From: Ceratodon purpureus | Lineage: Eukaryota; Streptophyta; Bryopsida; Pseudoditrichales; Ditrichaceae | DNA: 64,000 bases | Assembly: GCA_014871385.1 (NCBI GenBank) | Contig: CM026428.1 | Location: forward strand, 3,691,621-3,755,620 | Reading direction: 5' to 3' | Shown: in pieces, positions 3,537-46,375 of the stretch | How the letters are laid out: each line of letters starts with the position of its first letter | How positions within the stretch are numbered: the first letter of the stretch is position 1 | Notes under the pieces: model-generated | What the model saw: only the letters and a program-made list of their open reading frames with translations | Databases searched by the model: none | Told to the model about the DNA's origin: nothing | Made by a program: the position numbers and the translations under genes

Positions 3537-3570
3537 CCTCTCTCTCTCTCCCCCTTCTCTTTCCCTCTCG

Positions 3571-3603
<33 letters not shown>

Positions 3604-3622
3604 TCTCTCTCTCTCTTCCCGG
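3537..3622. repeat. (TC)n microsatellite
   Basis: A polypyrimidine CT/TC tract about 900 bp upstream of the BELL start. Its counterpart in the right arm is the GA tract at 48480-48570, which differs in repeat number. GA/CT tracts near plant promoters can bind BBR/BPC factors; that role is only inferred here. Confidence 0.85.
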
Positions 3623-5723: not shown

Positions 5724-5726
5724 TAG

Positions 5727-6491: not shown

Positions 6492-6494
6492 TAG

Positions 6495-13616: not shown

Positions 13617-13732
13617 TTAACCCCTAAATGGCCATTGTCCTGGAATGGGCTTTTTTGAAATTTGGGCAGGTTCCTAAAAATTCAAATTTACTTGAAAAAT
13701 TTTGAAATTTTTTGTGGTAAAAGGTTTTTTCA

Positions 13733-13850
13733 CAGGGTTGTTCAAATAGACGTCCGACCCGGCTCCGGACGTCAAGACGTCCGACCCGGACGTCCCCCGT
13801 CCCGGACGTGGCGTCTCCGACGCTCGAGAATTACGCCGCGGTAATAATTT
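13733..13850. repeat. Type-A terminus of giant hAT
   Basis: Repeated GACGTCCG motifs follow the CAGGGTTG tip, then GGACGTGGCGTC and GAATTACGCCGCGGTAA. The right end of the element at 36547-41616, read in reverse, shows the same order of blocks (AGACGTCC..., GACGTGGCGTC, GAATTATGTCGCGGTAA). The repeated GACGTC palindromes are candidate transposase-binding sites. Confidence 0.8.
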
Positions 13851-13889
13851 TGCGACCTCGGAGGGGTAAAAACATTCCCCAGCCGTCCG

Positions 13890-14651
13890 ATCGGCCGATC
13901 CCGCCACCACGCCTCATCTCGGCCGTCCGTTCGCGGGGACGGCCGCGGGGACGGCCGCGGAGACGGCCGCGGGGTCGTTGCGGACGGCCGCACGTCGATC
14001 CGACGGCCAAGATGCGGCCTTGCTGGCACATCGCGGGCCGTCGGATGTGGGCGGCCCTCCAGGGCCGTCGGATCCCACGGCCGTCGCCGCGGCCGACCGC
14101 GGGGACGGCCTCGGGGACGGCCGCGGGATCCGACGGCCCGGATCGATCCCGACGCCTGCCATCGGGGACCGCTCGATCGGCGCGGCCGACCGCGGGCCGT
14201 CCGATCCCGCGGCCGTCCCCGTGGCCGTCCCCGCGGTCGGCAACGGCGACGGCCGCGGGATCGGACGGCCCGCGGCAGCCATGGTCGGCCTGGGTGGGCC
14301 GTCCGATCGGGCGGCCGTCTCCGCGGTCGGCCGCGGGGACGGCCACTGGATCGGACGGCCCTCCGCGGCCGACCATGGCCGCCGCGGAGGGCCGTCCGAT
14401 CCCGCGGCCGTCCGCGTGGGCGACCGCGGGGAGACACGGCCGTCCGCGTGGCCGACCGCGTGCAGACGGGGCCGACCGCGGAGACGGCCGCGTCGGTCGG
14501 ACGGCCACGCGGCGCCATCGCCCGACGCGGCCGTCCGATCGGACGGCCGGCGCCTTCGGGCGGAGTCGCGCCCGATCGGACGGCCGCGGGGGCGTAGATC
14601 GGACGGCCGCGGGGACGGCCGTGGGGACGGCCGTGGGGACGGCCGCGAGGT
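13890..14651. repeat. GGCCGTC-rich GC island 1
   Basis: The sequence is built from variants of GGACGGCCGCGGGGACGG, GGCCGTCCGATC and GGCCGACCGCGG on both strands. It is extremely CpG-dense. All frames are open because stop codons are rare in it, so the long open frames here are not genes. It ends directly at the TATA hairpin of the kinase-like gene, which suggests a regulatory (CpG-island) or structural role. Confidence 0.85.
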
Positions 14652-14678
14652 CGGCTTCCCCTATATAAGGGGAAGCCG
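14652..14678 (+). promoter_or_regulatory. TATA element in hairpin, promoter of kinase-like cargo gene
   Basis: Perfect 10-bp arms, CGGCTTCCCC (14652-14661) and GGGGAAGCCG (14669-14678), hold TATATAA in the loop. It lies at the edge of GC island 1, 274 bp before the ATG of the kinase-like gene. The same arrangement recurs before the other two cargo genes. Confidence 0.72.
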
Positions 14679-14935
14679 CCTCTTCATTTTTTACCTTTTT
14701 TCTCCCTTTTCGAGTGAGGCTGATTGCTACTGGTGGGGGACTTGATCCTTCTCCGTTGGTCGTTCTCACCGGGAGGAAAGGGGTCCTTCATTTGGGGGGG
14801 GGGGACTTTTCGAATTTTTAAACGGTTTTTTTCAAAACCCTTTGGATTTGAATTGCTCTTATTAATCATTGTGGGAATTGAGGGTTTCTTTGGAGTTGCG
14901 GTTACGATTTCTTGAAGCCTTGAAGGCTTTCCACG

Positions 14936-16411
14936 ATGTCGAAGAACAAGAAGCAGAAGAATGTGGGGGAATGGGCGAACAAATTCGATGACATGCCGAG
15001 CTTACGTTGCAAGGATTATATTGTGGCATTCATCGTGGAATTTTACCAGGAGAATACCCTTGTTTCATTGAATAGTCGTTACGTTCGGTATGAGGAAGAT
15101 GGGCCCAGGAAATTCAAGTCAGAGATGGAGACAAAGATTAGGAATCGTTTGATGGATCCGTGCTGGCATTCGGATACACAGAAGCCCGGTTACGATCATT
15201 TCGTGTCACAACGTGCACACGATGCGTTATGGAATGCTAAAGAGGTTATTACTAAGTATGCAAGGGCGCAAAGGGGAGGAGTCGAGGCCTTCAAGGATAC
15301 TATTGCAAAGGCAGATTGCTTCACGAGACTAATGGCGCCCCATAGCTCAAGAAAGCATCGACGGGCGTCTATTACTTGGTGGAATTCTCCGATTGGGATG
15401 GAGACGGCGGCTGACTTACGTAAACGGCATTTGACTATCTTGGCAGACTTTGCAGTTTTCTATTACTTGGACAAGGAAGTCCAGAGAGGTGGTTATGCTA
15501 CCATACGTAGGGTTCGTATCGAGGGAAACCCGGAAATCCCACCGTACTGGGAGTTTGCTGAGAAACGGCCGCTCAATTGGTCTATGAGGCCGGATTTGGC
15601 ACGTGTGGACCACAACAATGAATCTCTTGCGATAAGGATTCCCCATCCTGGTGTCATCCGCTTCCAGGCCATTCATCAGTTGGAACATGTGGGATTCATG
15701 TACTGGTGGAACGGTGGGACCCTTCGAGCCATGCTACAGAGAGACAACGAGGCCCCGGGTGACCTCCCCATCGACTACATCTTCAGAGAGAATGCAGAGG
15801 ACAGTCCGATTCTAGGGAAGCGTCTCCAACTTTTCCGAAGTAAGCGTACAGAGCTTGCTTGGGCATTGTGTAACATCATAGATGCCGTACACAAATACGG
15901 TTACCTCCACAATGACTTGTCACCGGACAACATCCTACTTCACTTTCCGGAAGATGAGTCCAAGATCTACATCGGGGTTTGTGATTGGGGCTTGATGACG
16001 AAGACACTAGAGAACAGAAGGTCGCCTTGGGTTTTTGAGAGTGTCCATCAGAAGGAGGAGACTATGAGGAGGCGATACTGGGTGGATCCTCGCGTGGTAT
16101 ACGTACACAAGGAAAACCAAGATATTCAAATCATTCCAGATTTGACGGTTGCATCGGAGGATTTCGCAGCTGCGAAGATAGCGGCGAAGATCAACAGGGG
16201 CAACATGTGCACGGCATACCACGAAGCCGAGCCAGTAGAAACACGCCATTTCCAGAATATCGGAGAACTCGCAATGGTTTTCGAAAGTTACCTTGAGAGA
16301 GTTTGCCAAAACAACAGAGGAACGATTGGTGGACTCGGACATCTTATTAACCGTTTCAGAGATACACACAACTGGCCCACTCCCATCGAGCACTATCGCG
16401 AGGGTTACTGA
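14936..16411 (+). CDS. Kinase-like cargo protein of giant hAT
   Basis: A 491-residue intronless frame. The C-terminal half has a protein-kinase-like layout: a glycine-loop-like RGGYATIRRVRI (about residue 185-196), HPGVIRF...GGTLRAML resembling the hinge and helix D region, the catalytic loop HNDLSPDN (H325, D327, N332), and DWG (350-352) in place of DFG. I could not identify the usual beta-3 Lys or the APE motif, so it may be an atypical or inactive kinase. The N-terminus (about residue 20-105) has CKDY and DHFVSQRAHDALW, which resemble segments of the shared domain in the two neighbouring cargo proteins; this link is tentative. It has its own TATA hairpin 274 bp upstream and converges with the gene at 17371-18933. 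Its carriage inside the hAT element is seen; its role there is unknown. Confidence 0.8.
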   Translation: MSKNKKQKNVGEWANKFDDMPSLRCKDYIVAFIVEFYQENTLVSLNSRYVRYEEDGPRKFKSEMETKIRNRLMDPCWHSDTQKPGYDHFVSQRAHDALWNAKEVITKYARAQRGGVEAFKDTIAKADCFTRLMAPHSSRKHRRASITWWNSPIGMETAADLRKRHLTILADFAVFYYLDKEVQRGGYATIRRVRIEGNPEIPPYWEFAEKRPLNWSMRPDLARVDHNNESLAIRIPHPGVIRFQAIHQLEHVGFMYWWNGGTLRAMLQRDNEAPGDLPIDYIFRENAEDSPILGKRLQLFRSKRTELAWALCNIIDAVHKYGYLHNDLSPDNILLHFPEDESKIYIGVCDWGLMTKTLENRRSPWVFESVHQKEETMRRRYWVDPRVVYVHKENQDIQIIPDLTVASEDFAAAKIAAKINRGNMCTAYHEAEPVETRHFQNIGELAMVFESYLERVCQNNRGTIGGLGHLINRFRDTHNWPTPIEHYREGY

Positions 16412-17370
16412 TATGGAGTTACATATCTACCTTTCCGTATTCCTATAAAAGCATAATGTTTTTTTTGTTACCGGACGGCGGGCATAGCTCTTACTAGTGA
16501 ATAGTCATATTTACACTCTATATTATTATGAGATGTTGGAATCTCAATTTTTGTACACCGGTCAATATTTTGTTTATAAAGTTTACTTGCATTTGGTTCA
16601 AATATGGTCTCTGTACTAAGATTGGTCTATTTCTACCCCTTGTATTATGAGGAAAACGGATTGGCTCCACACATCTAGCTAAAAGTCGATACTCTCAATT
16701 CTAATTATGAAAATTATGCGATATGTGAATTGTAACCGTTATGCAGCTTATGCTTTGTAATTTTTATTCTTACAAATATTGGCAAGCGTATACTCAAGTT
16801 CTTTTCGTGAAGACGAAAGCGTAAGGGCCGCAAAACGTGATTGCTCATAATCCCCTGTACAAACAAATACCTTAGATATAAATATGCATCCATCAAAAAA
16901 TATCATTCACGATATTCTTATTAATTTAGCCCAAAAAATAATTGAAAATTATTTTGCATACTTGTCTTGAGATTCATTATATTCTAGTGCTCGTAAGCCG
17001 TAGACTCGTAACCCATGTCAATAGGAAGTTGTCATTTTAAAAATAGTGATATTGATAGTAATGTGCACTTCGAATACGGCTACAAGAATATTAAAAAGGT
17101 AAATTCCTTTCAAATGTTAAGACAACTACAATATAAAAGACAACACAACTACACTCTAAAACACTAATTATATCTATTCTACTTGCAAAATGTGGCACGT
17201 GCCTGTATTCTTGAGTCCGTACATTTTAAACCTCCATCTACAAAACTGCAAACTACGTACATACTATGCTTGCATCTTTTACTTTCCGTTGTAAATTTGT
17301 AATATGCGAAGTCCACATTAAAGTCTCGGTACGCTCCGATGCTGTAGAAAGTACTACCATGCACCCCATT
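16412..17370. other. Convergent intergenic region inside giant hAT
   Basis: An AT-rich stretch between the 3' ends of the kinase-like gene and the minus-strand gene. It should contain both polyadenylation regions. No other gene seen. Confidence 0.5.
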
Positions 17371-18933
17371 CTAATAGTCTCCCCTCCACCCTAATCCATT
17401 GTAGTCATATGGATGATAATAGTTCCCATCATTGGGGAGTTCGCTTGGACCTCCCCGATCGTACGTTTCTTGTGGCCCGTGCCTTGCTAAATTTGTGGAG
17501 GCTCTCAGAAGTCTCTCTCTCTCCTCCATCAATCTTCGATTATCCCGTCTAAGGTGAAACGCATGATTCTCCATCTGTAGTACGTAATTTTGCCTTCTTC
17601 GCTCCAACTCTAGTTCTTCCTCAAAATAGCTATCTCTTACAACTCGACCGGGAGGGTATCCAAAAGGAGGAGGTGGTACTCTGTCATCGCGATGAAGTAC
17701 GTTGCGGTTGTCCCCGCTATTGTGATCAGTACCGTCGGTGTGATAACCTAGAGGTGGAGGAAATATTCCAGGCGGAGTCCGCGAAGATGATCTGTAATCA
17801 TCTTCTGCAAATAGGGCAGATGGGGTACCATGACCACCATATCCGCGGTATGGAGGGGGAGTTGCGTAATCATCACGTCCCAGTCTCTGCGTATCTTCTT
17901 CGCGATCTGGGGAATAACCGTGAGGTACCTCTCTCGGAGGTGTTCGATGGCGCGGACTAGCACTCCTTGGAGGACTCGGTATTTCCGACCAGCCGTCGTC
18001 ATAGTTACTAAAGTATCTTGATCCCGTTGCATAATCTGGCCACGGTCGTCCCCCATAGGGTCCATACGTGCTATCCGCAAAGTCAAAGGGTAAATCAGCT
18101 CCTTCCGGTTCCCCGTGGCCATAGCCTTGTTCGTGGGGTCCCATGTCCTGACGATCTAGCGAACGGTGTCCCCCGTGGGCAGAGCTTTGTCCATACTCCT
18201 CATGGTTGGTACATGATGACTCTCTGGCACGATGCCCTCTGCGATTCCTTGGATTTTCGTTTGAGCGACGCCCTCGATAGTTGTCTTCATCATCATAGCT
18301 TAAACGACGTCTCTCCTGTTCCTCATCATTATATTCGATGGCTAGAGTTTGTATTCCTGCATCTTGTGCCGGTGGACTCCGACGGTTTGAAATATGTAAT
18401 GGGGGACAATCGCTATGTCCACTCCAGTCTGTTACAAGATCCATGCTGTCTCTGTTCATTCTATCTGTCCTCAGGCCCGAGACTGTGGTCCAGTCAACCC
18501 TCTTATGTAAGACTATCTCCGCCCACACCATTGCCATATTCGAATACAACATGATATGAGGTCGGGAGTTCTGGATTCGTGCTGCTCGAAAAACCTCGTT
18601 GTATCGAATTTTGAAATGATTACTTTCACAATTGTCGATCCTGATTTCTCCCCGTGTTGCTTGTTTCTCCGCAGCCTCGGTACGTAGATGTACTGGGATC
18701 AACTTCATGAGGTGCTTCATCTTGACATATTCCTTGCAAGTTACCATCCGCCATGGTGATGGTTCCCCCTCCCATCCAATCTCTGCTACACAATCAGGGT
18801 CATTCGTAGCGTATGGATCCAAGGGGTGTTTCCTTTTAGGAGTGGAGGGTCCTCCCCGGTCGTTACGAGGCATGGCGAAAGTCCGGTAAGCGAGTAGCTG
18901 TGAATACCGTGTATCGTACCAACCTCGTAACAA
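17371..18933 (-). CDS. Cargo protein with shared N-terminal domain and disordered R/G/D-rich C-terminus
   Basis: 520 residues without introns. Translation could also begin at M21 (MPRNDRGG), which resembles the start of the RING cargo protein better. Residues about 46-170 align by eye with residues 33-153 of the protein at 22915-26085: VAEIGWE/VAEEGWE, CKEYVKM/CKKYVKM, NHFKIR/DHFLHR, and MVWAEIVLHKRVDW/MVYAELILKRKISW. The remainder (about 190-520) is rich in Arg, Asp, Gly, Pro, Ser and Tyr, looks disordered, and contains a short charged stretch near 440-480 (EEELELERRRQN) that may form a coil. I recognise no catalytic motif and no known family. A TATA-in-hairpin element lies 290 bp upstream. 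The gene converges with the kinase-like gene. Confidence 0.78.
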   Translation of the reverse strand: MLRGWYDTRYSQLLAYRTFAMPRNDRGGPSTPKRKHPLDPYATNDPDCVAEIGWEGEPSPWRMVTCKEYVKMKHLMKLIPVHLRTEAAEKQATRGEIRIDNCESNHFKIRYNEVFRAARIQNSRPHIMLYSNMAMVWAEIVLHKRVDWTTVSGLRTDRMNRDSMDLVTDWSGHSDCPPLHISNRRSPPAQDAGIQTLAIEYNDEEQERRRLSYDDEDNYRGRRSNENPRNRRGHRARESSCTNHEEYGQSSAHGGHRSLDRQDMGPHEQGYGHGEPEGADLPFDFADSTYGPYGGRPWPDYATGSRYFSNYDDGWSEIPSPPRSASPRHRTPPREVPHGYSPDREEDTQRLGRDDYATPPPYRGYGGHGTPSALFAEDDYRSSSRTPPGIFPPPLGYHTDGTDHNSGDNRNVLHRDDRVPPPPFGYPPGRVVRDSYFEEELELERRRQNYVLQMENHAFHLRRDNRRLMEERERLLRASTNLARHGPQETYDRGGPSELPNDGNYYHPYDYNGLGWRGDY

Positions 18934-19208
18934 TGCCTGTAACTTCTCCCCACCGTATAAAAGTTGATTTAATCTCGTATATATCTAGTGCATAAGGACT
19001 AAAACAAAACCCAGAACTCCTGCCAAAAAACCGTACGTATGAAGCACTATACTGTTGGTTTCATAATAACCAACAAACGGTGCGGACAACCCTAAACACA
19101 ATCCCACGATAACCCGTGGGGAAGTAGTAAAAGCTTGGAGGAACGCAACTGAGCTGAAAAAAATCCAGCACATGTAGCACGAGCACCCAAGTGAAGAAAA
19201 AGGAAGAA

Positions 19209-19231
19209 GGGCCAGCCATTTATGCTGGCCC
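19209..19231 (-). promoter_or_regulatory. TATA-like element in hairpin, promoter of minus-strand cargo gene
   Basis: Perfect 8-bp arms GGGCCAGC and GCTGGCCC enclose CATTTAT, which reads ATAAATG on the coding (minus) strand. It sits between GC island 2 and the gene, about 290 bp before the ATG at 18933. Confidence 0.65.
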
Positions 19232-19249
19232 GAACCCCTAGGCAGCCAG

Positions 19250-19945
19250 TTAGGTCAAACGACGGCCCCCCTACGGCCGTTGGATCTCGGGGAATGGAGA
19301 ATCCAACGGCCGTAACTGGTCAGTCGCGGGAGCGGTCGCGGCCGTCCACGATCGCGGACGCGACCGGTCGTGCGGCCGCGACCGCTCCCCAAAGGGTGCG
19401 TCGGTGGACCGCCGCCCCGCGGTCGGGACGGCCGACCACGTCGACGGGCGTCCCCGGGGTCGGCCGCGGCCCACCGCGGGGACGGCCGTGCTCCACCCCG
19501 CGGTCGGAGGCTGCAGCGGCGTGGTCGGCCACGGCCGACCACGCCGACGGCCCTTCCGACCGCGGGGTGGGCCGTGGCCGTCCCCGGGGACGGCCTTGTC
19601 CGACCCCGCGGGGACGGCCGACCCCGCGGGGACGGCCGTGCTCCACCCCGCGGTCGGCCACGGCCGTCCACGCGGTCGGCGAGGGCCGTCCACGCGGACG
19701 GACCTTCCGACCGCGGGGTCGGCGACGGCCGTCCACGCGGGGACGGCCGCGGCCGACCCCGGGGTCGGGGGGCTGCGACCGCGGAGTCGGCCAAGGCCGT
19801 CCACGCGGGGTCGGCCGCGGCCGTCCCCGCGTGGACGGCCGTCGTCCGCAGCCGTAGGATCTTCTCGTCGGAGAAGATCCGACGGCCGTCCACGCGGGGT
19901 CGGCCGTGGCCGTCCCCGGGGACGGCCGTGTGGGGGGGGGGGTCG
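19250..19945. repeat. GGCCGTC-rich GC island 2
   Basis: Same composition as island 1, with GGCCGTCCACGCGG and GACCGCGGGG variants. One side faces the minus-strand gene and the other a pyrimidine-rich leader-like stretch at 19950-20030, so it may once have been a bidirectional promoter. Long open frames on both strands here are artefacts of composition. Confidence 0.83.
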
Positions 19946-22129
19946 AAGGAACTCCCCTCCCCTTGTGTTTTCTCTCCTCTCCTCCCCCCTCTCCTCCCCT
20001 ACTCTCCCCCCTCCTTCTTCTTCCAAACAATCCCACTTGGGATTGTTTGGACAGCATATCTCCTACAAATGGAAAATTCAGACATATCCCGGATATTGTG
20101 GGGAATGTCCTGAAGATCCTGTGATCGGGGAGGTGGGGTCGACGTTTGAAATTGGGATCCAATGAACTATGTGATATTTTGGTTCTTTGGGGGTGGATAA
20201 CCCCCTAGGATCTACAAATAATGTGAACACGTTTATGAAGAAGAATATATATCCTATCGAATGGAAAGAACCGTAGACATTGTGGGTACACTAAAACAGT
20301 TTTTACCAATTGTCATTTAAAGAAACGAAGGTACTCATGTTTTAGCATACGGTAATGAATTAACATTTTATACTAACGAATCAAAAGAGTAAATGTCAAC
20401 AACAATATGATAAGAGGAACATTGCGGAGAGAATGCACTAGAAGTAATTCAACGCATTAATTGATGTACACACTTGGTTTTGGATGCGGTGCACCTTACG
20501 TTTAAATGGTTAAGAGATTTGCATTTATATTTCACCGGTTTACGGTTTAGGGTAATCTCTTAGAAATATAGATCCAATTTCTTCTCGATTAGTGGTATAC
20601 AATGAAAATATTTATATAGATTCTTTGACTCTAATTTTTAATGGAATGATTTACCCTAGTTTTATTTCTTTAATTTTACATACTCTCGTTCTTTAGTATT
20701 ATGGTAGAATCAAAAATAAAAACATAAATAGTAGTTTAGATTATGAGAGAAACTGGAGATAATAATAAAGTGAAATAAACCAAAACAAACATTCAATTCC
20801 CTTGGGATTATGCAATTCATCGGAGGAATAAAACTCAAATCATTGTTTTCATAACAAATGGTCCAATTCTAATTTCTCATGGCTGGTTTAGAGTTATTTG
20901 AAATATAAAGACTCTCCTTCCTCTTTAATGTCTTTTATTTTACAAACTTCCATACCGTAGTACTGTGTTATCATTAAAAATAAAATAAAAAATCACTAGC
21001 TCACATTATGAGATGAGGAAGGGATAATAGTAAAAAACAAAATTAAAACAGAAAACATTCAACCGTCACTGAATATTGCCAATTTGTGAACGACTATAAT
21101 TGAAATCATTGTTTTTAGAAACAATTCTAGTTTCCAACGCCCAGAATTGAGTTGTACCTTGCAACTTATATGAAATAAAATAAATAAATTAGGTAACACA
21201 TTTACATTATACTCTATACAAATATATGTTTATTCATATACACTTTAACGTAAATATAAATATGGAATGGGATTCTAACTTGTACAATGTATAGTACATA
21301 CGTACAAAAGTAAACACTTACTAATGACACAACGAGAGAATTTAACAAGCACGAATGAGAGAATTTAACAAGTAAAATGGTGGAATAGTGGTCGAATTAG
21401 TAAAATATACTTTAACATGGGTCATGGAGGAAATAAATCGAAATACGAACGTTCAAAACGATATGAAAGGAAGAAATTCACGAAATGACATTTAAGGAGC
21501 TTCGAGGGTTGAAGTTCTAAATTAGACAAATTAGACGTTAAAAAAAGGGCATAAACTAGAGGGGAATAAAGTTTAAACATAGAGTAAAATAAAGAAGAGG
21601 TAAATGAAAACAATATTCGAAAGTGGAAATTGTATAGAGGGAGGAACGTTAAAAGTATATAAAGAGATGGTAACTCGAATTAAATTGATAATATGAAGAC
21701 GTTTAATGAAAGTATAATAGAAGCACTTATGTATTTAAAAAAACAAAAATTCAAAGCGGAGAATAAGAAGACGGTCCACGGAGAACTATTTAGATTACAA
21801 TTTCTGAAACAAGTTTAGATGAGTTCGATTTCTGCGAGGAACTTTTGGAGTGCGATGATAGACCACCTTGAAATGCGTACGATAGAAACAACAGAAATAA
21901 TGATTCGAATAAATGACACATACATTAACTTCAGTGGAGCGTACGGAATAATGACTCGTTGAAGAATTTAGATGCTTTGCATACCATGAAGTATTTTAAT
22001 TCGTGTTTACATTAACTGCTGTTCTCATTTTAATTGGTGAAAGAAATTAACAGGTTTAGTGTAATATGTGGTCGGAAGATGTAGCATTATATGTTTTTTT
22101 CATTTGTATTTTAAAAAAGGGGGGGGAGG
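19946..22129. other. Internal spacer of giant hAT with remnant shared with the smaller element
   Basis: The CT-rich stretch and following sequence (about 19960-20150, with ATTCAGACATATCCC and GGTGGGGTC) are related to 37540-37690 in the second hAT element. Both lie next to a GC island, which suggests the remains of a further transcription unit. The rest to 22129 is AT-rich with no recognisable gene. Confidence 0.55.
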
Positions 22130-22690
22130 GAAATTTCCCGCGGCCGCGACAGCCTCGTCCCCACGGTCGGGGGCCGTTTCCACGGCCGTGGGCCGTCTCC
22201 GCGAGGGCCCGTCCGCGGGGACGGCCCTTCGATCGCGGCCGTGATCGAACGGCCGTCGCCTTGGAGACGGCCCCGATCGGACGGCCGCAGGCTGTCGCCG
22301 ACGGTGCCGTCCCCGCGGCCGTCTCCAAGGCCGTCTACGCGGCCGTCCCCGTGCGGTCGGCCGCCATCGGACGGCGACGGCCGCGGGGACGGCCGCGATC
22401 GGAGGGCCGCAAGCCGCCCCCTCGGGGGCCGTCTCCAAGGCCGTCCCCTCGGCGACGGCCTTCATCGGACGGCCGTCGCCGAGGACACGGCCCGATCGGA
22501 CGGCCGCGGAGGCACGGGCCTCCGCGGCCGTCGCCGTGGCCCCCGACCCGACGTCCCCCAACGGCCGTCGTCAGGTTCGGGACGACGGCCATTGGCCGCG
22601 GCCGTAGGATCGGGGGGCGACGGCACTAGGCTCGGGGGGACGGCCGTAGGGTTGGGGGCCGTCGCCATATATGGCGACGGCCGTCCCCCA
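22130..22690. repeat. GGCCGTC-rich GC island 3
   Basis: GGCCGTC/GACGGCC variants on both strands, ending at the TATA palindrome of the RING gene. Composition and position match islands 1 and 2. Confidence 0.83.
22657..22682 (+). promoter_or_regulatory. TATA element in perfect palindrome, promoter of RING cargo gene
   Basis: A perfect 26-bp palindrome: arms GGCCGTCGCC and GGCGACGGCC around ATATAT. It closes GC island 3 and lies about 250 bp before the ATG at 22915. A CT-rich leader-like stretch follows. Confidence 0.7.
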
Positions 22691-22914
22691 CTTCCTCACT
22701 TCACTCTCCTCAATAGTCCCTCTCCTATTGCTACAGTTTCCCAATTCACTTGGGGGCTTGTTGGTACGTGGGGGTGAGGAGATGGGGGTCCCTTTTTATT
22801 GTGGGGGGGGGAGTTTTTGAATTTTCTGTATTCGTTATTTTGTAAACGTCATTTATCAACTCATTGTTTTCTTTAAAACAAAACCATATCGTTTTTGTTT
22901 AAAACGAGGTTACT

Positions 22915-25900
22915 ATGGCGGATCCGGAACATGATGAGATTGGAGGAACCGGGAAGAGGAACAGGCCGAAGGGAATGTGCCACAACTTTTCTTGGGAGAT
23001 CCTAGACAACAAAAACATTGTAGCTGAAGAAGGCTGGGAATCTGTAGGGGAGATTTTCTGGACTTTCAAGGAGTGCAAGAAGTATGTGAAGATGTATCAC
23101 ATTGACAAGTTATGGCCCCGAGAAGAACACGAGATGAACACACGGACTTTTAGTTGCAAGCCCTGGTTATGCATGGATGACCATTTCTTGCATCGGGCAT
23201 ATGAAGTCTGGACTACTATGTTTGGGCAACGGAAGCCCAGCAAAGGCCATTTCAATTATACCATTTGTAGTATGGTATATGCGGAGCTAATATTGAAGCG
23301 GAAGATTAGTTGGTGTACGTACCCCACTACGAAAGACAGGCCGTTGCAAATTGGATGGATGGTAACAGACATTCCGGATTTATATCTGATCGATCCTTTG
23401 CAAGCACAGAAGGTTGTAGCGGAGTTCCGAAAGCGGCAGTGGCCACATCTAAAGAGCTTTCCGAAGAAAGAAGTAAAAAAAGTACAGAATGAAACTCCGC
23501 ATCGTCCAGAGGAAAAGAAGCCCGTTGCCATTGCCAATGTGATCGCTACGATGTTCCCCGTTGCCACAGAAACTAATGCCCCTACTATTCCTAGAGCAGA
23601 CCTGGAAATCACGGTGAAATCTTCCAACGATACAAAGGGCAAGGCAGCCGTAGATGAGGTGGAAGTGGAGGTGGACAATGACTGCTCAACACATCTTACG
23701 GCTGCGGAAGCCGGATGCTCCAACTCTCGTTCAGTGGATGATGGTCCAAGTTCCTTGGCAATAGTACAAGTGCCTACCAAAGAGGATAGCACAAAGGATG
23801 CAGTTCATTCCATTTCGGAGATTATGGAGCTGGTGAAGTCGATGCCAAACAATGAATCATTGAAGGAGTTACTAGATTTTAGCACCAAATTGACGGAGGT
23901 GTCCTCTGATGAACAGCGTGGGGGCTTAGAGAATACCACAGAGGGAGACGCTGCAACAAGAACCACGGAGGAAGTGCAACAAATTCATAATGTGTTGAAG
24001 ATTGCACACACCCTGAAAGAAGGGGCTTCCGTATTAGGCGCTATGGCACCAGATCTCATAAATATGGCTCATGCATTTGGAAGTATCACTCCGGGCATGA
24101 TACAGGGTGCCCTTGGCTTTGACACTTTGGCATCTTCCATTAAGCCTCTTCTGGAAGACCGTGTGAAGTTAGGCGAAGAGAACGTGGCTCTGAGTAAGGA
24201 TTTAATGGATGCAACGGAACAAATCAAGAGTTTGACAAGAAGGTTGGACCATGTGAAGATGAGTTTTTTTGCACAATTGGAAGAGTGCAAAATCTACCAC
24301 CCGGTAGAGAAGGAGAAAAACAAAACAAAAGAAGTGAAGCCTACGGTGAAGAAGGAAGTGGTGAAGGTGGAAGGAAAGGATCGTATCATTGAAGTACTGA
24401 GCGATGGTGAGGATTCCGATGACCTTGGCCTTTCTAAATTTTCAAATAAAAGTGGAGATGGGGCCACACAAGGGATGGCATCTCAGAAGTCTAAAATGAC
24501 ATCTGGTCCAGTTCCATTGGACATTGGCTCTAGCCAAGCAACACCAGGACATGAGGATAGAGGAAAAGGGCCAATGGATGATTCAATAGAATTAGACATT
24601 ATTTTACGGGATTTGGAGGTGGCTAGAAGGGAAAGAGACGAGGCCCGTACGGAACTGGAAAGGCTGAAGACCACCATAAGGATGGTAGATGATACACCAT
24701 CTTCCATAAGGGCATTATCATGGCTTGGTTGGGTCCACAAACTACGAGATAAGGAGACAATAGTCTCTAGAGCACAACAGGATATGAAGAAATGTGCAAT
24801 TACTTCTATGGATGTCGAAGAAGCTATCCAATCATCTTTACAGAAGTATAACGAGGCAGCAGCCAAGGGCGGCGAGGATGCTACAAAAATCACGATATGG
24901 CGCGATGTAGGAGAAATGATGGAGCGCACATTACATAGTTCCAAAAATAAAGAAGGGGTCATTGACTGGGCGCTAGAGGTCGAGGAGGGGTGGATGCCGT
25001 ACGATGTACTATCATCTCATTTGGATGAATCGAAACGTGTGGTTATCCATACCCGCAAACCGTCGGAGGAATATTCGAAGGAAACGTGTCCCATCTGTCA
25101 ACAATATTTTGGGCCGGAAGGGGCCTTTGAGATGGGAAATTGTAATCACAAGTTCCACATAACCTGCATCGCGAAGGCTGCTTTAAACAACAAACAGTGT
25201 GTTATGTGTCGCTCCCCAATTAGTTCACGTTTTTACGAGATGCTGGGACTACAACACGTGATGCCGCCTGGGCATGAGTTTGATCGGTGGAATTTACCAC
25301 TAGACCAACTACCTAAGAAAGAGCTGAATTATTATGATTGGGGCAAATCACTGGCTTGGAACCCGGAGACAATGACTCACCAACTATCTACGGCTAACGA
25401 TGCCGGAATGGACGATTTTTCATGGATGACACACGACCATGAGGTGGAGATGAGGGCAAGTGAAATTCCGGATGCCAAGGACCGAGAATTTTTTTGTAGG
25501 AACTTCGGTGGACATTGGAGTATACATCGCAATCGCTTCTTCCGGTTTCCAAAACCGGAAGTTGTGGTAGATGCCGACGGTAAGAGAAGAGAAGTAGAAC
25601 GGGACTATGGCCAACTTGATGAGTACAAGATGTATGACAGAACCCCGGTTGGTAGGGCACTTGTATTGGCCAAACTAGAAGAAGCCATTCAGCATCGTCG
25701 CACTTTTACAGAGGAATCCTTCAAATATTCGGACCTAGACTACTGGGTGATCACTAAGAAGTTTGACGATGCTCTTCATAAAATAGTTAACGACTGGAGG
25801 AGGGCACTTCGTGCGGAGGATAATTCCTCTCGTTGGTCACGCAATAGGATTGAGAAGATTGTGCAAGAAACAGTAGCCAAGATTGACAAGGCAAAGGAGT

Positions 25901-26085
25901 TGTGGAACGGGAAGAATTCCAAGAAGCGCAATCGAGACAACCCTTATGAAGACGATCCCGAATGGGGGGAAGATAATCGTCGTTCTTTGGATCGCGTGGA
26001 AGAAGAATATCGATCGGGGGGTACGATTACACATCCAAGCCAGCGACGCCAGACTCGGAGGTCAAATGCAAACAATGGACGTTGA
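22915..26085 (+). CDS. RING-H2 cargo protein of giant hAT with shared N-terminal domain
   Basis: 1056 residues without introns. Residues about 33-153 form the unrecognised domain shared with the minus-strand neighbour (VAEEGWE, CKKYVKM, DHFLHRAYEVW, MVYAELILKRKISW). A long Lys/Glu/Ser-rich middle follows, with a probable coiled coil at about 415-450 and another at about 560-600 (ELDIILRDLEVARRERDEAR). A RING-H2 finger spans C725-C765: CPIC, then C743, H745, H748, C751, and C762-x2-C765. The last 250 residues are charged and include a WSIHRNRFFRF segment. The RING-H2 finger suggests E3 ubiquitin ligase activity; the substrate is unknown. The family is unknown to me beyond the RING. It has its own GC island and TATA palindrome. 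It converges with the transposase gene, about 470 bp apart. Confidence 0.85.
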   Translation: MADPEHDEIGGTGKRNRPKGMCHNFSWEILDNKNIVAEEGWESVGEIFWTFKECKKYVKMYHIDKLWPREEHEMNTRTFSCKPWLCMDDHFLHRAYEVWTTMFGQRKPSKGHFNYTICSMVYAELILKRKISWCTYPTTKDRPLQIGWMVTDIPDLYLIDPLQAQKVVAEFRKRQWPHLKSFPKKEVKKVQNETPHRPEEKKPVAIANVIATMFPVATETNAPTIPRADLEITVKSSNDTKGKAAVDEVEVEVDNDCSTHLTAAEAGCSNSRSVDDGPSSLAIVQVPTKEDSTKDAVHSISEIMELVKSMPNNESLKELLDFSTKLTEVSSDEQRGGLENTTEGDAATRTTEEVQQIHNVLKIAHTLKEGASVLGAMAPDLINMAHAFGSITPGMIQGALGFDTLASSIKPLLEDRVKLGEENVALSKDLMDATEQIKSLTRRLDHVKMSFFAQLEECKIYHPVEKEKNKTKEVKPTVKKEVVKVEGKDRIIEVLSDGEDSDDLGLSKFSNKSGDGATQGMASQKSKMTSGPVPLDIGSSQATPGHEDRGKGPMDDSIELDIILRDLEVARRERDEARTELERLKTTIRMVDDTPSSIRALSWLGWVHKLRDKETIVSRAQQDMKKCAITSMDVEEAIQSSLQKYNEAAAKGGEDATKITIWRDVGEMMERTLHSSKNKEGVIDWALEVEEGWMPYDVLSSHLDESKRVVIHTRKPSEEYSKETCPICQQYFGPEGAFEMGNCNHKFHITCIAKAALNNKQCVMCRSPISSRFYEMLGLQHVMPPGHEFDRWNLPLDQLPKKELNYYDWGKSLAWNPETMTHQLSTANDAGMDDFSWMTHDHEVEMRASEIPDAKDREFFCRNFGGHWSIHRNRFFRFPKPEVVVDADGKRREVERDYGQLDEYKMYDRTPVGRALVLAKLEEAIQHRRTFTEESFKYSDLDYWVITKKFDDALHKIVNDWRRALRAEDNSSRWSRNRIEKIVQETVAKIDKAKELWNGKNSKKRNRDNPYEDDPEWGEDNRRSLDRVEEEYRSGGTITHPSQRRQTRRSNANNGR

Positions 26086-26553
26086 GTAGAGTATTTACGT
26101 TGGACATGGTACCCGCATTACTACGGTTAATGTGACAATACACTGGGTGATAGTCGTATTTAGAGCAGTATATATATATATATATATATTGGTTGCGGAG
26201 CCCGGTGTATGGACTTTACACTACTTCTATATGTACTTGCAAAAATTACCTTTGGTTTTAATACAATTTCATTTATGTTTTATCGGAGTTGCATTTGTGT
26301 GGAAAGAATTGTTAGTACTTAGATGCATCGAACTTCATATGTAGATTGTGTACATTCATTACGAGAAAGAAATTGCGAGAAGTACAATCAAAGTAAAAAT
26401 AAGTACACAATGTGGAGGACAATATTGAAGAGGCAAGCACCACCGCTTAAATGAGATATAATATGATAATGGTTTCTAGAAATGGACATTCATAAAAGAG
26501 TGGCATTCTAGGGTGGTGCACTGGAAATGCCGCCTTCTAACTATCGTGCCCAA
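26086..26553. other. Convergent intergenic region with (TA)n run
   Basis: Lies between the 3' ends of the RING gene and the transposase gene. Contains a TA microsatellite at about 26170-26190. No gene seen. Confidence 0.5.
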
Positions 26554-29500
26554 TTAGGCCACATAATCGCTGTCGTCCTTCACTTCGGCCCCACTAGGAC
26601 CGGAAGAATCGTATTCGTCATCGCCATCGCTCTCGCGTACCTTCTTCACCCTCGCCTTACTCTTCTTCTTTGACTCGAATGGGTTCAGGAATTTCTTTGG
26701 GCCATTCGGGTCATCCAAAGGAGTTTTTGGCCTACCAGGATTGAAAGCCAACACCTTCTGAGTCTTGTCTACAGCCTTTCGCTTGGACGTGGCTCTAGCA
26801 GGGGGTTTCTCAGGAAATATGTCCGGTTTTCCCAAAGCCAACTTCGGCCCAAAGAGATTCCCAATTGGAAGTCCGTCATCAGTAGAGAGGAGGCCCGGGT
26901 CCGCTTGTCGGGTTCGGACCAATCTCTTCCTACATTTCTCCGCTACTTCAGCAGCCTTAGCATCTGCCTTCATTTTTTTAGACAACTCAACCAACCTCGT
27001 GGACGATTCGAACCCGCCAACTTGGACCCTAGTCTTTGCAGTTCCAAACAATGTGCGAGATGCACCCGATACGGGTACGGGCACATCCTCCTTTGTAGTG
27101 GGTGGAACCATATCGTCCTTGAGGCGGTTGAAGTTTGGAGAAACAACCTTAGAAGTATCAATGGTGGGGTCTCCCTCTTTCTTTGGTATGACCAAATCCA
27201 CGGTAGTATGAGAGGATCCTCCCCGGAGAATCTTATCACTGTTTAATAAACCGTCTCCATTCAAAAAAGAGGAAAGAGGAATCGTATCCTCCTCGTTGGT
27301 ACCTTCTTCTTCGACATCATCATACTCGAAAGCACGCTCCATTGGCGCAGGAGAACAACGGGATTTTCCTTTCGGAGACACCTCGAGGTCGTCGACTGGG
27401 GCCTCGATGGGGGGGTCAATTGATAGATCATCGAAGGGTAGATCAACATCAGACTCACTAGAGTAGTCAACATCCTCGGTTTCCACGGCCTTCGGATCCT
27501 CCTTCCCCTCCAACTCCCCGTAGAACCTGCCTAAGGCACTCAACTTGGACTGGGAAATTATCTTGGAATTTGTATACACAAACACGAGGTCATTAGCCCT
27601 CTCCGGAAGTAAACGGTTTCGCTTCCTGTCGTGGACAAAGGAGTAGCTACTCCAATTCCGCTCGCATGAAGAAGAAGACAGGGGCTGAGCTAAAATCCTT
27701 TTTGCAATTGCGGAAATGAATTTACCAGCGGATCCGTATATATCCCACCAACCAGAAGGCGGCAGTTGTGACTTAGAGGATTCACGTACGTCACGAAACG
27801 GAGGATAAGCTTCACGAAATGCAAAGAACTCTTCTATGACCACTTCCTTCAGTGTCGGAGGAGCCATCGACAACAAGACCTCCTTCGCCGATGCCATTGC
27901 ATCAGTATCATTGCGAAGGTCCTCATCGTCAATAAGATAAGGGTTTAGAAGCGCAGCAGCACACTGTAAGGGTGATTTAATCATGGCTTTACGCTCGTAA
28001 AATGAGTCCTCGCAGTAATCAGCATTGTCTGAGTCTAGTTTGAAGGGCTCATGGCGTAAAGAGAGAACATGCTTCTCAAGGTTGCGGAGAACAACGTAGG
28101 CTTTACCCAATGCCGATTCCTTCGCATCAAACTCTCGTAGGGCATATACAACGGGACTCGTCATCCACTTGAAGTTTGCACATTGCTCCCAGAAAACGTC
28201 ATCCAAGACAACCCTCTTAACATCGCGTGAGATCTTCGCTTTGTCACGGGCAGATAAGGTCTTCTTCGTTTCGTAGTTTCTCCAGTCAGGATCCACAACG
28301 CTCTGCTCCAATGCTCCTCGAACCTTCAGTAGACGCGAAATCATAATGTAGTGCGATGCAAACCTAGTCTGACCAGGCATCAGCAAGCTAAGTTTTGCCT
28401 CGTGCTTTCGAAATACCGAGAGTGGCATTTGCCTTATCTTTATGAACTTAACCAAGTTCTTAGCCCGATCTAGGAGCTCCTTCACCCACTTCATCTTACT
28501 CCAATCCTCCAACAAAAGGTCCATCGCATGGGCAGCACATCCTTGGACAAATATGGATGGATAGAGTGCTTGGACCAACTTTCCGGCATTAAGCATCACT
28601 GGAGCATTATCGTAGCATACTTGAATGATGTTCTGTTCTCCAACTTGTTGGATAAACTTCTCAATGACGGTTGCTACGAAAACAGCATCCTTCTCTTTCC
28701 CACTCGTGTCAACGGCTCCCAAGAATAACTCACCAGCTGGAGATACCAGCATTGCGTTTATTAGAGGGCGACTGCTTACAGAAGTCCACCCATCCAGGGC
28801 CAACGTTCCCCCGTACTTCCTAACACTTGAAAAAATCCTATCATTCAAGGAAGTCTCCAAATCAGTCCTTGCTTGGGCTAGTAAATTTGTTCGGAGATGG
28901 TGGTAAGATGGAGGTGTGTATGATCTCTTCATGTTGGACGTCTTCAACACCGCGTCCTTGAAAGAGGCACTCTGAGCCACGTTAAACGAGATACTGTTCT
29001 CGTAAAAAAATGTGGCCCATGCTTTGTCGCATTCCCGCCTCTGAGTCTCTTCGAAGCCCTCTTGAAGGGTAGATTGCCTCTTTGCCTTCAAAGGAGGAAA
29101 CGGACCACTACCTTCCCCCGAAAAAGTGGAAATGAAAGGTACACCCTCACCAATTAAAACGGGTTCATTCTTCGGAGTAGAAACCCGGGATCCAGCGCAT
29201 GAGTCCACATCCATGGGAGTATTCACTCTCGGGGATATATTGCCACGAGTCACCGGGGAAGTACTCTGCTCCGACATGAATATTCTGGAGTCGTTAGGGA
29301 ATTTGCCACCGCAATTCTTGAACAAGGACAATATAGCGGGTGACAAATTAGTGCAACGACCTACTCCACTAGTCCGTACCCCTAGAACTTTGTCATAGCC
29401 CAAATGACTGAGCATCCGCTCAATCCTCTTTGCGAAAGTGTTCTTGCATAGCATACATTGAACCATCTCAGTCTTCTTCTTCTCCGCATCGCTCATATGG

Positions 29501-29634
29501 ACTTCGGTATACCATGGGGAGTAACTTTTAGACGCCATTGGTGCACTTGATAGATCGCCCGGAAAAACTTCAAAAAATCGGGGTACCACGTCCTCAAGAG
29601 AACTAGAGCCTCCGAAGAAGCTCCAATTCAACAC
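26554..29634 (-). CDS. hAT transposase, apparently intact
   Basis: 1026 residues, one exon. M33 (MASKSYSPWYTE) is an alternative start. In order: a BED-type zinc finger (W41, C60-x2-C63, H77) near residues 40-95; a DUF659/RNase H-like core with LDGWTS (D281), CYDNAPVM (D342) and the hAT landmark CAAHAMDLLLEDW; and a C-terminal dimerisation region with SSSSCERNWSSYS (E658) and KRNRLLPERANDLV. D281, D342 and E658 are the likely catalytic triad by comparison with the family. After the dimerisation region there is an unusual extension of about 300 residues, acidic then Lys-rich. Most plant hAT transposases are 600-800 residues long. The gene lies next to the type-B end and has a TATAAAAG 109 bp upstream. 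It presumably mobilises this element and, in trans, 36547-41616. Confidence 0.92.
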   Translation of the reverse strand: MLNWSFFGGSSSLEDVVPRFFEVFPGDLSSAPMASKSYSPWYTEVHMSDAEKKKTEMVQCMLCKNTFAKRIERMLSHLGYDKVLGVRTSGVGRCTNLSPAILSLFKNCGGKFPNDSRIFMSEQSTSPVTRGNISPRVNTPMDVDSCAGSRVSTPKNEPVLIGEGVPFISTFSGEGSGPFPPLKAKRQSTLQEGFEETQRRECDKAWATFFYENSISFNVAQSASFKDAVLKTSNMKRSYTPPSYHHLRTNLLAQARTDLETSLNDRIFSSVRKYGGTLALDGWTSVSSRPLINAMLVSPAGELFLGAVDTSGKEKDAVFVATVIEKFIQQVGEQNIIQVCYDNAPVMLNAGKLVQALYPSIFVQGCAAHAMDLLLEDWSKMKWVKELLDRAKNLVKFIKIRQMPLSVFRKHEAKLSLLMPGQTRFASHYIMISRLLKVRGALEQSVVDPDWRNYETKKTLSARDKAKISRDVKRVVLDDVFWEQCANFKWMTSPVVYALREFDAKESALGKAYVVLRNLEKHVLSLRHEPFKLDSDNADYCEDSFYERKAMIKSPLQCAAALLNPYLIDDEDLRNDTDAMASAKEVLLSMAPPTLKEVVIEEFFAFREAYPPFRDVRESSKSQLPPSGWWDIYGSAGKFISAIAKRILAQPLSSSSCERNWSSYSFVHDRKRNRLLPERANDLVFVYTNSKIISQSKLSALGRFYGELEGKEDPKAVETEDVDYSSESDVDLPFDDLSIDPPIEAPVDDLEVSPKGKSRCSPAPMERAFEYDDVEEEGTNEEDTIPLSSFLNGDGLLNSDKILRGGSSHTTVDLVIPKKEGDPTIDTSKVVSPNFNRLKDDMVPPTTKEDVPVPVSGASRTLFGTAKTRVQVGGFESSTRLVELSKKMKADAKAAEVAEKCRKRLVRTRQADPGLLSTDDGLPIGNLFGPKLALGKPDIFPEKPPARATSKRKAVDKTQKVLAFNPGRPKTPLDDPNGPKKFLNPFESKKKSKARVKKVRESDGDDEYDSSGPSGAEVKDDSDYVA

Positions 29635-29742
29635 ACTTCTGAACGCCGCCGTTCACCATGCAACAGATACACACGTATATTAGTGGAACTAGTAGCACAT
29701 GGAGTACAATTCAGAAGTGTAATGGCAACTTTCAGGAGGGGT

Positions 29743-29750
29743 CTTTTATA
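29743..29750 (-). promoter_or_regulatory. TATA box of transposase gene
   Basis: TATAAAAG on the minus strand, about 109 bp before the ATG at 29634. Unlike the cargo promoters it is not held in an inverted repeat, and it sits closer to its ATG, so the transposase may be controlled differently. Confidence 0.6.
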
Positions 29751-29860
29751 CTCATTCCCTGAAATGCCAAGGGGTAAGCCCTAAAAATCAACGGAGGACG
29801 GCCGTCGAGGCCGTAAGTCAACGAGGGGCCGTCCGATCATGGACTGTCACGGCCGTCGAA

Positions 29861-30102
29861 GGGGCCGTCGCCGGGGACGGCCCCCCCCACCGCGGCGACG
29901 GCAAGGGGCCGTCGCCGGGGACGGCCCCCCCACCCACCGCGGCGACGGCAAGGGGCCGTCGCCGGGGACGGCCCCCCCCACCGCGGCGACGGCAAGGGGC
30001 CGTCGCCGGGGACGGCCCCCCCACCGCGGCGACGGCAAGGGGCCGTCGCCGGGGACGGCCCCCCCCACCGCGGCGACGGCAAGGGGCCGTCGCCGGGGAC
30101 GG
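29861..30102. repeat. Six-copy 43-47 bp tandem repeat in GC island 4
   Basis: GGGGCCGTCGCCGGGGACGG recurs at about 29861, 29905, 29952, 29997, 30039 and 30083, each followed by a C-run and CCGCGGCGACGGCAA. This is the most regular of the GC islands, located between the transposase promoter and the type-B end. It is a candidate array of transposase-binding sites or a silencing target. Confidence 0.88.
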
Positions 30103-30185
30103 CCCCTTCCCGACGCGTCCGACGGCCGCCCCCGCTCCGCGGCGACGGCCGCACCCTCCCCCGCAACCCCTCCGCCGCGTAGAAG

Positions 30186-30318
30186 ATGTGGTTTCACCCC
30201 GGGGTGAAACCTATGCGGGTGATTTTTTTTTTCTAAGTCACAGGACGTCCCCTGGCGCTGGCGGACGTCCGCGGACGTCCCCACGTCCCGAGCGTCCCGG
30301 ACGACCGTGACAACCCTG
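30186..30318. repeat. Type-B terminus of giant hAT
   Basis: Read inward from the tip: CAGGGTTGTCA, GACGTCC repeats, CGCCAGCG, GTGACTT, an A-rich tract, then the perfect 22-bp palindrome centred at 30200/30201 (arms GGTTTCACCCC and GGGGTGAAACC). The left end of the element at 36547 shows the same order of blocks with one mismatch in the palindrome. Confidence 0.82.
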
Positions 30319-30326
30319 TTTTTTCA

Positions 30327-35792: not shown

Positions 35793-36079
35793 CAGGGTTG
35801 TCATAACGAACAGACATGGGCCAAATTCGGCGGACCGGACGGCACTTCGGACGGACAGACCGGTCGGTCCCCAACATTTATCGGACATAGCGGTCTGCTA
35901 GAAAAAAATTAATAGGTATATATCTTCAATATGTGCACAATAATCTTCAATATATACAAGATTGGGACGGTCAACCTTAAGTCTTGGTCGAACGGACCTC
36001 CCTTGACCCCTAACGGTCGGACAAGCGGACCGAAGGTCCGGACGGCACTTCGGTCCGGGAGGTCCTATAAACAACCCTG
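35793..36079. mobile_element. 287-bp hAT MITE
   Basis: The ends are CAGGGTTGTCATAACG and, at the right, TATAAACAACCCTG. An exact 8-bp duplication TTTGTGTA flanks it (35785-35792 and 36080-36087). The inside is rich in GGACGG / GGACCG motifs rather than the GACGTCC of the giant element, so it is probably a related but separate subfamily. Confidence 0.9.
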
Positions 36080-36546: not shown

Positions 36547-37074
36547 CAGGGTTGTCAAGACGTCCGAGGACGTTTGGGACGTCCGGACGTGCACGGACTT
36601 CCGCCAGCGCTCCAAGACATTCTGTGACTTTGAAAAAAAAAAAAAAAAAAACAGGTTTCACCTCGGGGTGAAACGAGATTCTGGAGGGATAAACATTTTT
36701 CGACCGTCCGATCGACCGATTCTGCGACGGGGCCGCATCACGGCCTTCGGATCACGAAGACGACCGCGAGGACGGCCACAAGGTCGTTGCTGACCACGGC
36801 CACTCCGCTCCGACGGCCACGATACGGCCGCTTCGGGCGATCGTGGGCCGTCGGATCGGAGCGGTCGCCGACGGCCGTTCGTCCCCTAGCCGTCCGCAAG
36901 GCTGAACGCGGGGTCGGACAGTCCGCGGCCCCTCCGATCCCACCGCCACATTCGGGCCGCGGCCGCCGCATCGTGGCCGCTCGATTCCAGCAGCCGTTGA
37001 GGGCCGTTGGATTGAAGGGCCGTTGGATTGGGCGGCCGTCGGCGGCGACGGCCACCATTTCAAAAAAAACCCTC

Positions 37075-37385
37075 GAAACTTAAAATGTTCATAATTTCTT
37101 TAAAAATTATCCGAATCGGGCTTATGAGGTGTTTTCTTGCATCTATGTTTCCTGTAGATGCCAAAAAAACATCTCACAAGTCCATTTTGGACACGTTTTG
37201 AGGAAGTTACAGCAATCTGAATATTTCGGAGCGCCTCAAAACTTAAAATGTTCATAACTTCTTCAAAACCTGTTTGAATTGGGCTTATGAGGTGTTCTTT
37301 GGCATCTACGTTTCTTTTAGATGCCAAAAAACATCTCATAAGTCCAAGTTGGACAAGTTGTGAAGAAGTTACGGCAATCTGAAGA
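37075..37385. repeat. Subterminal inverted repeat of second hAT (left)
   Basis: Two tandem units of about 150 bp (AACTTAAAATGTTCATAA... GGCTTATGAGGTGTT... GGCATCTACGTTTC...). The inverted counterpart is at about 40800-41105, so together with the GC islands the element has foldback-like arms of roughly 0.85 kb. The phrase ATGCCAAAAAAC is repeated many times. Confidence 0.75.
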
Positions 37386-37444
37386 TTTCAGGGAGTTTAG
37401 AGGTCGGCCGTCGGGGAAGACGGGGGGTCGTCGGCGCGGACCGG

Positions 37445-37490
37445 GGGGGGGGGGGGGGGGGGGGCGTCGGCGCGGACGGAGGGGGGGGGG
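37445..37490. repeat. Long poly(G) runs
   Basis: Two G-runs in a G-rich stretch, the first about 20 bases long, inside the second hAT element. Such runs can form G-quadruplexes and are also prone to length errors in sequencing. Confidence 0.8.
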
Positions 37491-37699
37491 GCTTGCAAGG
37501 CCTTCCTTCTTCTCTTGGGTTTTCTCTAGAGCCCGCCTCCCTTCTCCTCCTCCTCTCCTCCAACCTTGACAAAAATAATTCCATTTCTAGACACTCTAAA
37601 AACAAAATCATTACCGAACTGGAAATTTCAGACATATCCCTGAAATCATTCCAAATGTTCTAAAGATCTTGTAATTGTGAGTGTGGGGTCCGCCTTGAG

Positions 37700-39050: not shown

Positions 39051-39053
39051 TAG

Positions 39054-39794: not shown

Positions 39795-40051
39795 TAGCAT
39801 ATCCTCATTCCAAAAGAAAGAAACATTTCTCTTATGTCAACTCCCGAACCTTCAAAATTCACCCACCTTTCTAAATTAAACCTCCACCCTTGTCAGATGG
39901 CTTGGTTTTTTAATTAATTAATTAACACCATCTTCGACTTCTAATTCAAATTTACAATCCTCAATTCTAATTAATGTGTCCTCCAACTTCCTTCACACAA
40001 TTTCAACCTCTATCTAATTTGATTAGAATTCTAATTTCTAAGTGTTGCCTC

Positions 40052-46372: not shown

Positions 46373-46375
46373 CTA

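Follow-up and report, generated by a model that had tools for sequence, protein, structure and literature searches.

Plant transposons of the hAT superfamily, for which terminal repeats of the CAGGG type are usual, are commonly seen as small elements with one gene; maize Ac creates 8-bp target site duplications, and the VANDAL elements are of Mutator type, not hAT. Ac measures 4.6 kb (PMC3260210), and fungal hAT elements with one extra gene are already known, namely the carrier of a histone H3-like sequence in Pseudocercospora fijiensis, with 471 repeats and a full length of 9.5-9.9 kb (PMC6710886), and the carriers of TET/JBP genes (PMC12730594). VANC proteins of the Arabidopsis VANDAL transposons act on tandem repeats located in noncoding parts of the element that encodes them (PMC10398659). 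ToxhAT/ToxTA of fungal wheat pathogens, a 14-kb element with a passenger gene, was formerly classed as hAT and is now assigned to Tc1/mariner with TA duplications, so that it offers no hAT precedent (PMC12506042). Here, a stretch of 64,000 nucleotides from the moss Ceratodon purpureus (the window, at C8:3691621-3755620) is analysed, which holds at 13733..30318 a giant hAT element of 16,586 bp with a transposase gene, a kinase-like gene, a gene for an R/G/D-rich protein and a RING-H2 gene. The element is a unit that has inserted at many places in the genome with a recurring set of these four genes, each preceded by a GGCCGTC-rich module, and it shares its ends with a series of shorter elements. 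On balance, we lean towards regarding it as an autonomous hAT transposon with three resident accessory genes that would serve the expression of the element or the control of its transposition.

The preliminary description of the window had proposed that positions 13733-30318 form one mobile unit of hAT type, and the ends, the exact duplication, the intact transposase and copies elsewhere in the genome bear this out. Starting at 13733, the element reads CAGGGTTG (longer stretch CAGGGTTGTTC), and its last letters, up to 30318, are CAACCCTG (inverted form CAGGGTTGTCAC); CAGGGTTGT, present on both ends, makes up the short inverted repeats, of CAGGG type, at the termini. The target site duplication TTTTTTCA lies at 13725..13732 on the left and at 30319..30326 on the right, the two copies matching exactly. 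The 8-mer CAGGGTTG occurs five times in the window against 1.96 expected, and at least five times in 4 of 100 shuffles, which makes it weak evidence when taken alone, so that proof of the ends rests on the genome copies. Global alignment of element ends was uninformative (shuffle control mean 0.73), and BLAST was used instead. Across the window's own genome (362,488,568 bases in 151 contigs), a 24-mer of the left end was found 289 times and a 26-mer of the right end 291 times with up to two mismatches, reversed control patterns giving none; the earlier statement that the boundaries rest on more than one copy is thus amply borne out.

Evidence of insertion comes from a sample of 30 transposase loci (L002-L031, the window's own copy included), of which 29 have a right end upstream of the transposase, L028 being the exception. 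Both ends could be read in 17 of the 21 copies examined for them, with lengths of 16,335-16,804 bp; the left end of the other four was masked (L003, L014), deviated from the pattern (L027) or lay outside the stretch read (L019). Exact 8-bp duplications border 13 of the 17 copies, L016 has one mismatch, and a flank of L010 is masked. Flanks differ between copies except in two pairs, which match over 595 bp at 99.8% and over 619 bp at 99.5%; additionally, the flanks of L002 and L020 match partially, at 88%. When the flanks of the 12 copies outside the window with exact duplications were joined by script and compared with the window and the other sampled loci, uninterrupted paralogous sites emerged for two. 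The empty site of L020 corresponds to window positions 30484-30913 (82% over 434 bp) and that of L008 to 37322-37671 (81%), as well as to a short element described below, L078 (85%); since the junction is ungapped in these alignments, the 8 bp are present once at both sites, with one mismatch for L008. The copy at L008 (C11:13972519-13989301) sits within a short relative akin to the window's 5.1-kb element. L012 on C5 and L015 on C4 are the pair sharing the 595-bp right flank, which, together with a mismatched duplication at L015, suggests a segmental or recombination event. One conceivable reading, that four genes were enclosed by chance between unrelated ends or joined by an assembly artefact, could draw on the shortness of the perfect terminal repeat; it meets exact duplications at many sites, a near-constant length and uninterrupted paralogous sites, and its probability is negligible. 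Chance enclosure is refuted by the copies with duplications, by the 3' end of the RING gene adjoining the transposase in 30 of 30 loci, and by the empty paralogous sites.

All four long open reading frames (ORFs) of the giant are intact, each a single uninterrupted frame, and include the three genes reported earlier besides the transposase. The transposase (26554..29538, reverse strand, 994 residues) matches DUF659 (E 6.8e-36) and Dimer_Tnp_hAT (E 1.5e-10), both above the Pfam cut-offs, and shows a weak BED finger match under the cut-off and, in its C-terminal part, a weak likeness to Hermes (E 0.09). Its DGWT, CYDNAP and CERNWS motifs, picked by eye, are candidates for the catalytic DDE triad. 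The RING-H2 protein (22915..26085, forward strand, 1056 residues) has its RING at residues 724-766 (about 25084-25212), with a zf-RING_2 match above the cut-off (E 1.9e-7). The kinase-like protein (14936..16411, forward strand, 491 residues) reaches E 3e-5 with Pkinase, under the Pfam cut-off, and carries HND...N and DWG motifs recognised by eye. The R/G/D-rich protein (17371..18873, reverse strand, 500 residues), itself without a Pfam match, has an N-terminal domain in common with the RING protein, the two being 34% identical across 111 N-terminal residues (E 1e-9); this shared domain has no Pfam match, and pairwise comparison gave no match of the kinase-like protein to either. A search of viral contigs with the kinase-like and RING proteins returned no relatives.

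The set of genes recurs as a whole. Near full-length copies number, among the matches listed, at least 46 for the transposase and at least 44 for the RING gene (both at 95-100% identity), and copies of the R/G/D gene and of the kinase gene at least 86 (87-100%) and at least 87 (88-100%), respectively; these are lower bounds, with only the best candidates scored. Among the same matches, an R/G/D copy lies no more than 3 kb from 68 of the 87 kinase copies, and a RING copy no more than 5 kb from 31 of the 46 transposase copies. In the 30-locus sample, lists and spot reads together place the R/G/D gene at regular spacing in 27 loci and the kinase gene in 26. The spot reads covered 13 places in the 8 copies for which an R/G/D or kinase gene was absent among the matches listed; the sought sequence was there at nine places (97.5-100%), two were masked (L022) and two unmatched (L031), so that six of the eight copies had it, with L022 masked and L031 unmatched at the expected places. 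Among the remaining exceptions to regular spacing, L022 is masked and the kinase of L019 is unread. Matching by eye gave at least 11 copies in which each of the four genes is listed at full or nearly full length and free of stops. The check proposed earlier, for the same genes between the same ends elsewhere, therefore found them in dozens of copies. Contig C6 (110,524,308 bases, 30.5% of the genome) holds 50 of 86 R/G/D, 52 of 87 kinase, 19 of 46 transposase and 21 of 44 RING copies among the matches listed, including, by eye, most of the more diverged R/G/D and kinase copies.

Large size and intact extra genes also bring to mind a Starship-like carrier, whose extra genes would benefit the host and have spread for that reason. 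This is highly improbable here, as the copies read hold the same genes with no turnover seen among them, there are dozens of copies, and many are decayed (by eye, stops occur in 18 of 46 transposase and 9 of 44 RING copies among the matches listed). Furthermore, the duplications are of hAT type, and seven ORFs of at least 187 residues scanned between 14936 and 29538, none of them left of 14936, gave no Pfam match to a tyrosine recombinase at E 0.1.

A second feature joins the four genes, namely a dense array of one short motif. GGCCGTC or its complement GACGGCC occurs 110 times in the window, of which 96 sites fall in the giant, 12 in a 5.1-kb element and 2 elsewhere, and 94 of the giant's 96 cluster into four modules, one upstream of every gene start. 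With limits drawn by eye and dinucleotide shuffles as controls, module 1 (13840..14670) precedes the kinase-like gene with 33 sites against a shuffle mean of 1.1, module 2 (19200..20060) the R/G/D-rich gene with 22 against 0.9, module 3 (22000..22680) the RING-H2 gene with 21 against 0.4, and module 4 (29791..30190) the transposase gene with 18 against 0.6. TATA-like boxes lie at -274 of the kinase gene (TATATAA, on the inner edge of module 1), at -212 of the transposase gene (TATAAAA, closer to the start than module 4) and at -110 of the R/G/D gene; the TATA pattern search gave no box for the RING gene, where CCATATATGG sits at the module edge. Outside the modules, GACGTCC-type subterminal repeats accompany both ends, five at the left (13733..13839, shuffle mean 0.2) and six at the right (30230..30318, shuffle mean 0.1), and an A+T-rich spacer (20061..21999), parts of which recur inside some short elements, separates the R/G/D and RING genes.

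Shorter elements also bear the ends of the giant. When the first 100 left ends in the list were examined, a right end from the corresponding list could be assigned to 51, and 49 had no partner there. The 51 pairs fall mainly into two size classes, with 26 at 4.0-5.4 kb and 19 at 16.3-17.1 kb; the others span 7.1 kb (one), 13.7-14.3 kb (two) and 24-33 kb (three). One short element, L078 (5.15 kb), is about 94% identical to the giant at its ends, is flanked by the exact duplication TTGACACA and contains 62 GGCCGTC sites as well as an internal inverted repeat of 1.16 kb (98%); its interior, without gene-like frames or transposase, resembles that of the element at 36547..41616 in the window. The latter, 5.1 kb long and also without a gene-like frame, shares both distinct ends with the giant, as the preliminary description had noticed, in opposite orientation: its left end corresponds to the right end of the giant, and its right end to the left one (via L078, 70-74% identity), and its flanking duplication agrees at 7 of 8 bp (GATCATGT/GATCATGC). 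Samples of 121 bases were taken from eight more short elements, at the position expected for the gene of an element with a transposase alone. Four of the samples matched L078, three the giant's A+T-rich spacer (in one case over just 46 bases), and one had no match; none held transposase sequence. Because L078 has no transposase and the eight samples show none at the place read, the 4.0-5.4-kb elements with the giant's ends look non-autonomous, and those containing parts of the spacer may be products of internal deletion. Ends without the genes are therefore common (26 of the 51 pairs); the preliminary description had named them, together with cargo genes always lying outside such ends, as a sign of chance enclosure, which is refuted on the grounds given above.

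The same spacer, together with the division of the giant into four module-plus-gene blocks, could mean accretion, in which genes of one or more other mobile elements became nested in a smaller hAT and spread with the insert. Such a composite origin would also suit the larger numbers of kinase and R/G/D copies compared with RING and transposase copies among the matches listed. It appears improbable nevertheless, given that all four genes stand by one type of module and that CAGGGTTG occurs inside the giant at its two ends only, other inner ends not having been searched for. The related idea that some copies lack the RING and transposase genes was dropped, as one suspected case, L053 at C4:725744, has at least the first 0.8 kb of the RING gene (its transposase end is unread).

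The patterns of change among copies bear on whether the extra genes matter to the element. With changes counted per mutation type and polarised by the majority base at each site, omega over all changes is 0.58 for the transposase (30 copies, P 0.0003) and 0.53 for the 3' part of the RING gene (30 copies, P 0.012). The R/G/D gene gives 0.72 (18 copies, P 0.007), with 0.34 at shared changes (P < 0.0001) and 0.95 at singletons, and the full RING gene 0.77 (9 copies, eight chosen and the window's own, P 0.044). These values are signs of purifying selection on the transposase gene, the R/G/D gene and, in its 3' part, the RING gene, and not clearly on the kinase gene. The main competing explanation is that the three genes are passengers of host or foreign origin, which an ancestral hAT took up a single time and which have been copied along with it while being useless to it; a parallel is the fungal hAT in which a captured histone H3 gene has reached hundreds of copies (PMC6710886). 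We regard this as possible but rather unlikely, in view of the purifying selection suggested for the R/G/D gene and for the 3' part of the RING gene, the module at every gene, and an arrangement that most of the 30 copies preserve in both order and spacing. Resident accessory genes seem appreciably likelier, because the gene set recurs, each gene has its module and signs of selection are present. The recurring order and the module per gene, along with the signs of selection that two of the three genes bear, suggest that they are the element's own, and the description of the giant as cargo-mobilising is not supported, there being no sign of host origin or of gene differences between the copies read.

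Several observations weigh against resident accessory genes and an intact, uniform family, and the first of them favour passengers. The kinase gene is near neutral, without clear constraint (omega 0.87, 18 copies, P 0.19). For the full RING gene, omega at shared changes is close to neutrality (0.96, P 0.50) and reaches 1.65 at changes found in three or more copies. Omega leans low for the transposase, kinase, R/G/D and full RING genes, since the copies were ranked by score or partly picked as stop-free; the RING 3' sample, picked by transposase score, is free of that particular bias. Stops in the transposase sample number 9, close to the 7.5 expected. The modules may be mere promoters or subterminal repeats, and the distance from module to ATG is uneven, about 330 bp for the R/G/D gene against 235-266 bp for the other three. 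In L031, an R/G/D copy lies only at 31.6 kb and no kinase gene within 40 kb; in L023, the R/G/D gene, at 12.6 kb, is partial, and a kinase gene lies at 28 kb. Duplications are mismatched at L004 and L015. Finally, structure predictions were too poor to be of help, with a predicted local distance difference test score (pLDDT) of 31.3 for the kinase-like protein and 47.3 for the shared N-terminal domain.

For the autonomous element with resident accessory genes, a working mechanism may be outlined. The transposase would bind the subterminal GACGTCC repeats, cut at the CAGGGTTG ends and create the 8-bp target duplications, moving the element by cut and paste, for which insertion is observed and excision is presumed. 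An element-encoded protein would bind the GGCCGTC-rich module upstream of each of the four genes, and the N-terminal domain common to the R/G/D and RING-H2 proteins may be what recognises the modules. The RING protein, as an E3 ligase, might attach ubiquitin to a silencing factor or to the transposase; the kinase might modify a partner. The three extra genes would thereby have an inferred accessory function, in regulation or anti-silencing, keeping the element expressed or steering its transposition. The noncoding short elements, retaining the ends and module-like arrays, would be mobilised in trans. A more elaborate version, a dedicated multi-protein system in which the R/G/D and RING-H2 proteins, with their one recognition domain, and the kinase act through GGCCGTC modules on the genes and on the noncoding partners and block host silencing by ubiquitination, is tentative and on present evidence doubtful. 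To our knowledge, no RING/kinase-based anti-silencing or transposition-control module has been described on a plant cut-and-paste element, and this one, if the proposal is true, would be the first. New here are the module per gene, the 4-5.4-kb elements with the same ends, the N-terminal domain that the R/G/D protein has in common with the RING protein, and the signs of selection; the idea of accessory genes can be tested directly on the modules and on the noncoding partners. More generally, a 16.6-kb family of near-identical copies with four recurring genes shows that transposons of the cut-and-paste kind are able to carry, and to retain, a small system of genes.

Set beside described systems, the giant resembles Ac/Ds in its hAT type, its short terminal and subterminal repeats and its non-autonomous partners of varied content, and differs in size (16.6 kb against 4.6 kb for Ac; PMC3260210), in its three additional intact genes and in the module at each gene. 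With the P. fijiensis element it has in common an extra coding sequence, 8-bp duplications and amplification; there, a housekeeping gene was captured and the copies were inactivated (PMC6710886), whereas the moss giant, in a plant host, has three different genes, two of which show signs of selection. The TET/JBP-carrying hAT7 elements of rust fungi are similar in having an accessory enzyme gene thought to counter silencing; they differ in their 7-bp duplications, their dioxygenase gene and their fungal hosts, and the accessible part of that report mentions no kinase, RING or R/G/D gene (PMC12730594). Lanisha, a transposon of C. purpureus, was considered and rejected as an identity, the giant having hAT domains and 8-bp duplications; Lanisha has an EnSpm-like transposase and belongs to a group, CMCT, that makes 2-5-bp duplications (PMC12730594). 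A possible likeness to VANDAL/VANC lies in an element protein acting on the element's own noncoding repeats, a binding that is shown for VANC (PMC10398659) and supposed for the giant. Should the extra proteins counter silencing, the moss would provide a second plant lineage, beside VANDAL/VANC, for studying how transposons escape methylation. No account of a plant hAT of this kind came up in a literature search by title or abstract opening, whose coverage did not extend to the genome paper of C. purpureus or its repeat library.

Beyond the giant and its 5.1-kb relative, the window contains a miniature element of 287 bp (35793..36079) with CAGGGTTG ends, a different inner sequence and an exact 8-bp duplication, TTTGTGTA. 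A large inverted repeat (1-7970 and 42632-52101, with main blocks 93-100% complementary) has a spacer of about 34.7 kb that encloses the three hAT elements. Each arm holds one copy of an ORF of 577/578 residues, at 877-2610 and 49487-51223. The latter copy shows a weak match, under the Pfam cut-off (E 1.7e-4), to POX (Associated with HOX), a plant domain.

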